From: Synechococcus sp. CBW1002
Lineage (GTDB): Bacteria > Cyanobacteriota > Cyanobacteriia > PCC-6307 > Cyanobiaceae
DNA: 64,000 nt
Assembly (NCBI RefSeq): GCF_015840915.1
Contig: NZ_CP060398.1
Coordinates: 62,001-126,000 of the forward strand
Direction of reading: 5' to 3'
The position numbers and the translations under genes were made by a program. Positions 53,354 through 56,097 of the stretch are shown piece by piece. Under the pieces are notes generated by a model. That model saw nothing but the letters and a program-made list of their open reading frames with translations, was not told the DNA's origin and searched no databases. The first letter of the stretch is position 1. Every line of letters begins with the position of its first letter.

Positions 53354-53839
53354 TCAGGCCACCGTGAGGCGATCACGCCCCTGCTCCTTGGACAGATAGA
53401 GCGCCCCATCGGCCATGGCGAGGGCTGCATCGAACGGGAGAGGTTGATCTGGATCGGCCACGAACAACCCAGCGCTGATGGTCACACCCCCGTCCGGGGC
53501 CAACCCCTGGAGATCCAGAACCTTGACCTGGCTGCGGATCCGTTCACCGATCCCCAGAGCCATGGCCGGATCAATCTGGGGGAGCACCACCAGAAACTCC
53601 TCTCCACCGAGGCGATACACAGCATCTCCCTCTCGCACGGCCTTGGTCATGACAGCAGCCACCTTCTTCAGCACCTGATCACCGGCCGCATGGCCGAAGC
53701 TGTCGTTGATCCGCTTGAAGAAATCGATGTCGAACGACAGGAGGGCGTAGGCACCGCTGGGCTGGTCATCTTCAAGGGCCCGTCGATTGGTCAGGCCCGT
53801 GAGCGAATCGGTTGTGGCCTGTTGCTTGAGCTCAAGCAT
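53354..53839 (-). pseudogene. GGDEF half of an ODP-GGDEF diguanylate cyclase split by an IS
   Basis: The fragment is 161 residues, a full GGDEF domain. TDSLTGLTNRRAL opens it, and DIDFFKRINDSFGHAAGD is the substrate region. The active-site loop is GGEEF, with an RxxD inhibitory site (REGD) five residues before it, and MADGALYLSKEQGRD is near the end. It is the C-terminal half of the gene whose N-terminal half starts at 56097. The IS1595 element separates them. An ATG made by the 8-bp duplication and flank (53837-53839) is in frame, so the domain might still be translated alone. Confidence 0.88.
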
Positions 53840-53846
53840 GCGCAGA

Positions 53847-54878
53847 CTTGATTAGGTAGCAAGCTCCGCGCTCCTCAGGAGGTGCTCGGGTCGTGCGGTG
53901 CAGAGACAGACCGCCTGGAGCACTTGATCGGTCATCTCTTCCAGCTTGAAGCGGTGATTGAAGCGGAAGCTGAAAGCGCCCAGGTAGCGATCAGCGTACT
54001 TGTCAAAGCGCAGGGCATGAAACGTTCCGCTGAAACTGGTTTTCAAGTTACTAATCACGGTGTTGATCCACCGGAACTCAGGCAGATCCTTCGGATGCCG
54101 CCCCTTCACTGTCGTGGGGTGATGAATACAGCCCACCTCTGCCACGGCACGGAAGCAGGCCAGCCCATCGGAGATCACCTCGCATCCTTGAGCCAAGGAG
54201 CTCTGGGCCCAGTCTGCGATTGCCACGAAGGAGAAGGCTTTGACCTTCGAGACCTTCACATGAATGGGGTGGCCGTCCTCGTCCAGTGAGACAGCTGCCA
54301 CGATTGGGACCTTGTTTTCCGATCCTCGACCTGCCTTGCCACCATTGCATTCACCACCAAAGTAAGCATCATCCAGCTGCACTTTTCCATGTAGGACGCA
54401 TGCTTCCTCTTGCTCGCTCATCGCTTGGATGATTTTATTGTGCATCAACCACGCCGTGCGGTAATTCACCCCGAGTTGCCGCATCAGAGCCAGGGAGGAC
54501 GTACTGCTCTTTGCCTGGCCAATTAGGTAAAAGGCGAGGAACCAGATCGTGAGAGGCAACTTCGTGGCCTCCATGACTGTTCCAGCAGTGAGCGTTGTCT
54601 GATGGCGGCACTGTCGACACTGATACCGCTTGTGGCGGCGTCCATAGACAAGGCCATGCTCCTTCTGTCCGCATCGAGGACAGCGGAATCCCTCCGGCCA
54701 GCGAGCTGCCTCTAGAGCAGCCTCGCATTTCTCCTCGGTGCCGTAGAGATCCATGAACTGGGGCACGGACATTCCAGGCTGGAATTGGATTCGGTTCACG
54801 GCCATGGCGTCGCCCCTGGTACGTAGGTACCACTCTAGGCCCGTCCGGGCTGGCTGCGGCGCTTGCTACCTAATCAAG
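53847..54878 (-). mobile_element. IS1595-family insertion sequence inside the ODP-GGDEF gene
   Basis: The 1,032-bp element has perfect 18-bp inverted repeats (53847-53864 and 54861-54878, CTTGATTAGGTAGCAAGC on the left). It is flanked by a perfect 8-bp target duplication TGCGCAGA (53839-53846 and 54879-54886). One transposase gene fills it. Removing it and one duplication copy restores the host reading frame exactly, evidence of recent insertion. Confidence 0.96.
53852..54805 (-). CDS. IS1595-family transposase
   Basis: The protein is 317 residues. An N-terminal zinc-ribbon with two CxxC pairs (CPRCG and CRQC) is followed by an ISXO2-like DDE domain: Asp in VQLDDAYFGG, Asp in EVISDGLACF, and an Asn in WINTVISNLK in place of the third acidic residue, the DDNK form of this family. 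The stop codon TAA lies in the left inverted repeat. Confidence 0.95.
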   Translation of the reverse strand: MAVNRIQFQPGMSVPQFMDLYGTEEKCEAALEAARWPEGFRCPRCGQKEHGLVYGRRHKRYQCRQCRHQTTLTAGTVMEATKLPLTIWFLAFYLIGQAKSSTSSLALMRQLGVNYRTAWLMHNKIIQAMSEQEEACVLHGKVQLDDAYFGGECNGGKAGRGSENKVPIVAAVSLDEDGHPIHVKVSKVKAFSFVAIADWAQSSLAQGCEVISDGLACFRAVAEVGCIHHPTTVKGRHPKDLPEFRWINTVISNLKTSFSGTFHALRFDKYADRYLGAFSFRFNHRFKLEEMTDQVLQAVCLCTARPEHLLRSAELAT

Positions 54879-56097
54879 TGCGCAGATGATCCTGATGCTC
54901 CTCCACCACACCATCAATCCACGACTGAAGAGATGGAGTGATGTCCTTCAGCATCCTCAGAACATCCTCATCCACAGGGATCTGGTCGTCGATCAGCAGC
55001 GACAGCTTCGTCGGAGGTTGGGTGCTGAGCTCCACCTGCTCCCAGCTCGGCGGCGGCCCTTCCAGCCGCGGTTCCGGTGGTGTGCCACTCCAGCTGGTCC
55101 ACCCCTGATCAGGCAGGTCAATCGAGAGCACGCAATCGCGGACTCCGCGGATACGCTGCAGCACCAGCTTGAGGGTGACCAGCATCTGGGTAGGGGCGGC
55201 CTGGGACAGGAGCACCTGAAACAGGCGGCTACGGGCCTCGGCAATGCGCAATAAGCGCTTCAGATCGATATCGGCATCCGCCAGGGCGAAGATGCCGCAC
55301 TCCAGAGCCTTGAGCCGGCTGAAGGCCTCCTCCACCAGCGGGCCAGGCACGACATGGCCGTGCTGGGGGGCGATCATGGCGATCTGGGGCCAGCGCTGCT
55401 GGACCCGGGTCAACCCAGCCGACAGCAGCTCCGTGCTGGGCATGTAGTGCTGATGAAAGGGCTTGGCACTGGCGATCAGAACATCAAGGTCCCGGCAGAT
55501 CAGATTGGCGGCATCGGGGACAAAGCCGCCGAACAGATCGGAGGAGAACAGAATCCTGGAGGCCGTGTCATACGACACCATCGCTCCAGGGAAGTGCAGA
55601 TAGGGCGTGAGCTGAAACTCAAGAGCTCGATCCCCTTCCAGAGGCAGACGCCAATTCTGTTCCTCCACAAGATAATAATCAAAACGGTGGCCGTAATGGC
55701 GCAGAAGCGCCATCGCCCGCCATTCGGTGACCACCTGAATATCCGGCCGGCTGAGGCGCTCGGACAACATCGGCAGGGCCGCCGCGATATCAGGATCGCA
55801 GTGGTGACAGACCAGATAACGAATCGCACTCAGGTCGTCGATCCGGGCCACCTTGGCCAGGGTGGTCTCGATCGTGAGCGGCGAGCCCGGGTCAATCAGA
55901 ACCCCATTGTTGCCATTGCGCAGGTAATAGGCATGGCACTGGAAGCGGTCGTCCGGCAGGCGACGCCCGACCCACCACACATCGGGAGCCAGTTCGATCG
56001 GGGCATCGGAGCAATCAGCAGGCTCGTTGCTCCCATGAAAAGGAAGCACTGAAGTCTCCCGTCGATCCAACTGTGACGGCTCGAAGTCGATGATCAC
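54874..56097 (-). pseudogene. ODP (diiron metallo-beta-lactamase) half of an ODP-GGDEF cyclase split by an IS
   Basis: The fragment is 407 residues. Residues 30-260 form a metallo-beta-lactamase fold of the FprA/ODP type. LIDPGSP is the first turn, and the metal loop reads VCHHCDPDI (His98/99, Asp103; a Cys replaces the usual Glu). Later ligand regions are LHFPGAM, FSSDLFGG and APQHGHVV. No flavodoxin domain follows; a helical linker runs to HLRT and the stop contributed by the IS. Its frame continues in the downstream GGDEF fragment after the element is removed. Such ODP domains bind oxygen at a diiron centre. Confidence 0.85.

Follow-up and report, generated by a model that had tools for sequence, protein, structure and literature searches.

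ODPs of Thermotoga maritima and Treponema denticola are the closest solved relatives of the sensor domain considered here, whose sequence predicts a diiron sensor of oxygen and iron like those that act in chemotaxis. The T. denticola ODP is described as genetically coupled to a separate chemoreceptor (PMC7666581), and ODPs fused with signal-transduction domains have been identified as a group (PMC7319448, summarising Muok et al. 2019). On the output side, a 2022 review of cyclic di-GMP (c-di-GMP) sensors (PMC8846402) treats globin, PAS-heme and hemerythrin sensors of O2 or redox state, and its main text contains neither the word ODP nor the word lactamase. We studied a stretch of 64,000 nucleotides from the free-living picocyanobacterium Synechococcus sp. 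CBW1002 (contig NZ_CP060398.1, positions 62,001 to 126,000), called here the window. Its region 53354-56097 would hold, with a probability of about 0.75, the gene of a soluble ODP-GAF-GGDEF diguanylate cyclase, broken in recent time, whose product when intact responds to O2 or iron.

The split gene and its insertion sequence

Two open reading frames (ORFs) of the window, a 5' part with an ODP domain and a 3' part with a GGDEF domain, lie on either side of an IS1595-family insertion sequence (IS) and on the same minus strand as its transposase (Table 1). The two 18-bp ends of the 1032-bp IS were identical (CTTGATTAGGTAGCAAGC) and its flanks carried a perfect direct duplication (TGCGCAGA) of 8 bp, the usual target duplication length of the IS1595 family. 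The transposase ORF matched the IS1595 models of Pfam (7.9e-31; PF12762 and PF12760) and of NCBIfam (NF033547, 6.7e-55, 186 bits with a cut-off of 75). When the IS and one copy of the duplication were removed, HQDHLR joined MLELKQQ and a single open frame of 567 aa resulted. A first-pass annotation, made from the letters alone, had described just such an insertion and a parent gene of about 567 residues, joined without a gap and of ODP-GGDEF type; all of this held, the last with PF19583 at E 1e-51 and PF00990 at E 4e-35. The stop codon of the 5' part is wholly, and its last codon partly, supplied by the IS, whereas the internal ATG of the 3' part lies 12 nt past the transposase stop. At the level of sequence, the predicted parent is thereby confirmed as one minus-strand ODP-GGDEF gene, now split by the IS between sensor and enzyme. 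The insertion falls at residues 404-407 of the window protein (402-405 in Synechococcus sp. CS-1328, see below), within a long helix (385-414) that runs from GAF to GGDEF in the CS-1328 model.

The joined protein was searched against 60 related genomes, the window's own included. An uninterrupted orthologue, whose absence the first-pass annotation had named as refuting its reading, was found in CS-1328, the only congener in the set, where the gene is whole (565 aa, 93% identical, no stops); among the matches listed, the other related genomes matched the GGDEF part only. The gene order tyrS - pyrF - ODP-GGDEF - DUF2721 - OsmC is common to the window and CS-1328. A functional meaning of the tyrS-pyrF neighbourhood was considered and dropped: in the loci examined these genes were not beside the ODP-GGDEF gene outside the genus, and we took them as incidental. 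The ratio of nonsynonymous to synonymous substitution (dN/dS, NG86) between the window and CS-1328 was 0.16 for the ODP-GAF half and 0.23 for the GGDEF half, with 0.125-0.21 for four neighbouring genes. By these values the break, which is derived, is probably recent, and most of the divergence between both strains seems to have gathered while the gene was whole.

The window genome (3.85 Mb, one contig) holds a second copy of the IS elsewhere, also 1032 bp, 100% identical and flanked by its own perfect 8-bp duplication (AGGACTGT). At E <= 1e-50 the IS was present in 2 of the 60 related genomes, one of them the window's own, and no close match was found among the plasmids searched. Ten more places in the window genome matched an end of the IS with 78-81% identity over 122-206 nt (for instance C1:2572766, 1199565, 1913469, 1715286 and 497548), and those of them that were scored further had 72-76% identity over the whole or most of the IS. 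Beside the two identical copies, this genome thus appears to carry several IS1595 lineages. Disruption by transposition is as such an ordinary event.

Table 1. Features of the split gene, its insertion sequence and ODP genes with other outputs. Positions are those of the window unless a locus is named.
Feature	Position	Strand	Basis or remark
5' part, ODP and GAF-fold region, 407 aa, GTG start	54874-56097	-	
3' part, complete GGDEF domain, 161-aa ORF from internal ATG	53354-53839	-	
IS1595-family insertion sequence	53847-54878	-	1032 bp; ends and duplication
Terminal inverted repeat, 18 bp, left in plus strand	53847-53864		
Terminal inverted repeat, 18 bp, right in plus strand	54861-54878		
Target duplication, 8 bp, TGCGCAGA, copy 1	53839-53846		
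Target duplication, 8 bp, TGCGCAGA, copy 2	54879-54886		
IS1595 transposase, 317 aa	53852-54805	-	Pfam and NCBIfam
ODP domain, PF19583, residues 52-247	55357-55944	-	Pfam; best solved relative 6qrq
Metal loop H99-C-D101-P-D103	55789-55803	-	Alignment
Predicted GAF-fold relay and start of coupling helix, residues ~270-407	54877-55290	-	CS-1328 model
GGEEF signature of cyclase	53594-53608	-	
ODP and class III adenylate/guanylate cyclase	L076:1480-3849	+	Mariprofundus-phylum genome
ODP and hybrid histidine kinase	L075:1-2475	-	Mariprofundus-phylum genome
ODP and hybrid histidine kinase	L077:1480-3912	+	Mariprofundus-phylum genome

Predicted sensor, relay and cyclase domains

The ODP model PF19583 was matched well over its cut-off (176 bits vs 27.2), but it also matches flavodiiron proteins (FDPs), so that the Pfam match alone is not decisive for an ODP. 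By sequence, the closest solved relatives were the ODPs of T. maritima (6qrq) and T. denticola (6qnm), with phmmer values of 1.2e-22 and 8.7e-16, and the metal loop aligned as H-C-D-P-D-I here and H-Q-D-P-D-V in both solved ODPs. In CS-1328 numbering, used from here on, the loop residues are H97, D99 and D101; together with H166, D185, Q243 and H244 they were invariant in 26 of 26 complete relatives (see below), and the window protein keeps all seven predicted ligands at +2 from these positions. This corresponds to the ODP ligand set, i.e., H-x-D-x-D, H, D and Q-H with the third His of motif 2 lost. The pattern of I102 and Q243 fits the T. maritima ODP, in which the third His of motif 2 is described as replaced by a Gln of motif 5 (PMC7785958).

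The claim of the first-pass annotation that the loop has a Cys where Glu is usual came from a misalignment: Asp occupies the place of the flavodiiron Glu in both solved ODPs and throughout the 26 complete relatives, and the Cys stands where Gln is usual, at position 98 (Gln in 22 of the 26, Cys in 3 and Pro in 1). By the alignment with the two solved ODPs and the 26 relatives this is a non-ligand place, and the idea that the Cys replaces a metal ligand was rejected. The reading of the window protein as a flavodiiron enzyme was rejected as well. FDPs have HxExDH and a flavodoxin domain; the motif here is HCDPDI, and no flavodoxin model was found among the Pfam matches of the window ODP half or of six complete relatives. 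The window genome itself encodes a protein with the flavodiiron-type HTEPDH at C1:1270438; no HxExDH was seen in the scan of its third ODP-model match, at C1:1273541.

The CS-1328 orthologue was modelled with six sequences (pLDDT 81.6). The ODP of the model aligned with 6qwo at Z 28.7 (root-mean-square deviation, rmsd, 3.3; 244 residues aligned) and with 6r9n at Z 27.7; FDPs reach Z 27.8, so the fold agrees with that of ODPs without separating these from FDPs. The GGDEF domain of the model had as its best-scoring GGDEF counterpart that of DosC (4zve; Z 21.5, rmsd 1.9, 147 aligned). For the middle region, modelled alone (pLDDT 84.9), the top three structures were GAF domains, the best being 3trc (Z 10.2, rmsd 3.0, 124 aligned). 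These models predict a GAF-fold relay between ODP and GGDEF, which was absent from the first-pass account.

The GGDEF match covered the whole PF00990 profile. As had been claimed for the window sequence, both the GGEEF loop and the RxxD of the I-site are intact, arranged as REGD-AVYRL-GGEEF with RxxD five residues ahead of GGEEF, and the domain is complete with its metal Asp residues. The window genome has 20 GGDEF matches over the cut-off (the broken one included) and three PilZ matches, and therefore c-di-GMP signalling as such presumably goes on in this strain. One further GGDEF match (C1:3775941-3776411) has an in-frame TGA and is possibly a second broken cyclase. A GGDEF-containing query gave 22 matches in both the window genome and CS-1328, among at most 23 candidates scored, and zero or one match in 29 of 35 other family members searched, some of whose genomes are incomplete; by picocyanobacterial standards, the genus seems well supplied with c-di-GMP enzymes.

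Distribution, possible origin and losses of the gene

A scan of genome contigs gave seven loci, in three picocyanobacteria (CS-1328, Vulcanococcus limneticus LL and a Cyanobium metagenome-assembled genome, MAG), an 'Actinomycetes' MAG, Mariprofundus erugo, a Mariprofundaceae MAG (where the frame is broken) and an unclassified MAG. In a search outward from Mariprofundus, made with a profile of the ODP and middle region and counting matches at E <= 1e-60, its class gave 13 matching genomes out of 78, and the sample of its phylum 47 out of 398; of these 47, 38 had an open frame (stop to stop) of at least 500 aa, eight had only short ODP-like frames, and one had a frame cut by its contig. The alignment of 26 complete proteins (A4) was made of loci L045-L050 and 20 of the 34 loci L057-L090, with starts chosen by script. 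It leaves out L051 and L057 (frame broken, both of the same genome), L058, L059 and L068-L072 (ODP-like ORFs of 248-362 aa), L060 and L061 (HTEPDH, flavodiiron type), the contig-cut L065 and L066, and L075 and L077, cut at the locus end.

All 26 complete proteins have the ODP; its output is GGDEF in 25 of them and a class III cyclase in one. The partial proteins of L075 and L077 continue into HisKA, HATPase and receiver domains, i.e., they are hybrid histidine kinases. That the ODP precedes three different types of output is the strongest evidence in this analysis for its predicted sensory role. The coupling of an ODP to c-di-GMP synthesis had been called rarely described. As a combination of domains it is no rarity, and that idea was discarded, given long frames in 38 of 398 genomes of the Mariprofundus phylum and ODP-GGDEF in 25 of 26 complete proteins; rarely described it may well be, for no study of an ODP cyclase was found in the literature searched, the coverage of which excludes most subscription journals.

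In a tree of 37 ODP rows, three picocyanobacterial proteins and that of the 'Actinomycetes' MAG grouped in a single long-stemmed clade (100/100) that lies among rows of the Mariprofundus phylum; its exact place was not settled, and the tree was rooted at the midpoint. This placement suggests, without proving, that picocyanobacteria gained the gene horizontally. The G+C of the ODP-GGDEF gene is 0.614 and that of the window 0.661. The 'Actinomycetes' protein inside the clade (L047:1307-2971) is an ODP-GGDEF with the loop HPDPDI; it is a candidate for a transfer between bacteria or for a mis-binned contig, and its neighbours (FUSC-like, SDR) and G+C of 0.68 settle nothing.

The class of the window strain was sampled with 388 genomes, CS-1328 not among them, and the counts are those of this sample. 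With E <= 1e-15 as the limit, the ODP half matched in five of them. These are the window genome, G326, in which the matching frame has HTEPDH and is of flavodiiron type, and three genomes that belong to one other genus (G006, G331 and G339). In those three the gene is fragmented, each copy with its own deletions and shifts of frame, and the fragments occupy a site in synteny with that of the intact Cyanobium MAG gene. Because G331 is a single contig (G006 and G339 are drafts), misassembly is an improbable cause for all of these remnants. Since the three genomes hold deletion-ridden remnants, picocyanobacteria have lost the gene at least twice. Note that in the Cyanobium MAG (L048:2170-5137 and L048:5914-7641) the intact ODP-GGDEF gene is divergent to two nitrogenase-like genes, one of them with a protochlorophyllide reductase 57-kD domain; they are probably chlB and chlN, whose enzyme is oxygen-sensitive.

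Proposed function, rival readings and known sensors

The domain architecture, the intact orthologues, the motifs and the insertion can be read off the sequences. In the intact protein the ODP would hold two irons and change state with O2 (and with iron supply); this change would pass through the GAF-fold relay and the long helix to the GGDEF domain, where it would raise or lower c-di-GMP synthesis, the product feeding back at the RxxD site. With the IS1595 element in the coupling helix, the sensor (407 aa) and the cyclase (161 aa) would no longer be joined, and in the window strain O2 would have lost its link to c-di-GMP. Iron binding, O2 response, cyclase activity, the direction of the signal and the loss of coupling are taken here by analogy from characterised families.

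Several points weigh against this reading. The interdomain arrangement of the CS-1328 model is poor (pTM 0.50), and the middle region had no Pfam GAF match and no Foldseek match at E <= 0.001, the best being 1.9e-3. Within the picocyanobacterial clade of four, residue 98, beside the ligands, is Cys in three proteins and Pro in one, a change that could alter the O2 chemistry. The GGDEF half has a dN/dS a little higher than the range of the neighbours, and it could still be active in isolation. The CS-1328 assembly, in which no IS match was found at E <= 1e-50, is a draft of ~70 contigs, 94% complete, and drafts can miss IS copies.

The same altered residue would also suit an ODP whose signal is iron supply, nitric oxide (NO) or the redox state, or which works as a small O2/NO reductase, the cyclase then reporting something other than O2. 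Fold and sequence in common with the flavodiiron NO/O2 reductases point this way, as does the characterised hemerythrin cyclase, whose regulation is described as depending on redox state rather than on bound ligand (PMC9388753). We consider such a function somewhat unlikely: the protein gave no match to a flavodoxin domain, its ligands are those of sensory ODPs, and the domain precedes several signalling outputs; iron sensing, moreover, is compatible with the ODP reading. That both halves still work, as a free ODP-GAF protein and a free GGDEF domain from the internal ATG, possibly co-transcribed with the transposase, would agree with two complete, open domains on the transposase strand and with low dN/dS in both. 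This is distinctly unlikely, however, as the coupling helix is severed and dN/dS can hardly reveal selection after an insertion that seems so recent. A consensus scan found no promoter-like site (0, with 0.6 expected by chance), although cyanobacterial promoters may escape a consensus, and a terminator scan at the locus found none. The loss of the gene may be buffered by the 20 GGDEF matches of the genome, the broken one included, and the gene has decayed in three genomes of another genus. As for two adjacent genes that were never one protein, with the IS between them, the two reading frames of today are what they would leave, but the perfect duplication, the open joined frame and the 93% identical fused orthologue at the same place refute this, and we give it practically no chance.

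If the reading of a broken ODP-GAF-GGDEF cyclase is true, c-di-GMP signalling gains a type of O2/iron-sensing cyclase not named in the main text of the 2022 review (PMC8846402). It is directly testable with the close relative in a named strain, CS-1328, and the window strain, with its broken copy, offers a natural knockout to study the role of such a sensor in an oxygen-producing cell. We propose, tentatively and at rather less than even odds, a broader view: the ODP, with its GAF-fold relay, may be a widespread, interchangeable O2/iron input module for c-di-GMP, cyclic nucleotide and hybrid kinase signalling, a third O2-sensing cyclase chemistry beside heme and hemerythrin, whose picocyanobacterial branch would have retuned its diiron site, with Cys or Pro in place of Gln beside the ligands, and would be undergoing repeated loss.

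Compared with known systems, the window protein has the domain, ligand positions (HxDPD, H, D, QH) and fold of the ODPs of T. maritima (6qrq, 6qwo) and T. denticola (6qnm, 6r9n). The solved chains, however, are single domains of 253-255 aa with Gln in the loop, whereas here the ODP is fused to GAF and GGDEF domains and the loop has Cys. The metallo-beta-lactamase diiron fold is also that of the flavodiiron proteins (FDP/Flv, FprA), from which the window protein differs by its HxDPDI and by having no flavodoxin matched. Hemerythrin domains are helical bundles unrelated to this fold. Vibrio cholerae Bhr-DGC (PMC9388753, PMC8846402), for which these sources name only hemerythrin and GGDEF domains, is nevertheless alike in principle, with a non-heme diiron sensor N-terminal to GGDEF; its reduced form is described as ~10x more active (PMC9388753). 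The heme cyclases DgcO (DosC) and BpeGReg (PMC8846402) take O2 as input and give c-di-GMP as output, as is likewise proposed here, but their sensor is a protoglobin heme and not an ODP. The window protein fits the group of ODP fusions of PMC7319448, a summary in whose main text GGDEF and diguanylate are not worded. Its sequence would make it a predicted new member of a known but little-studied type of sensor, and not a wholly new one.

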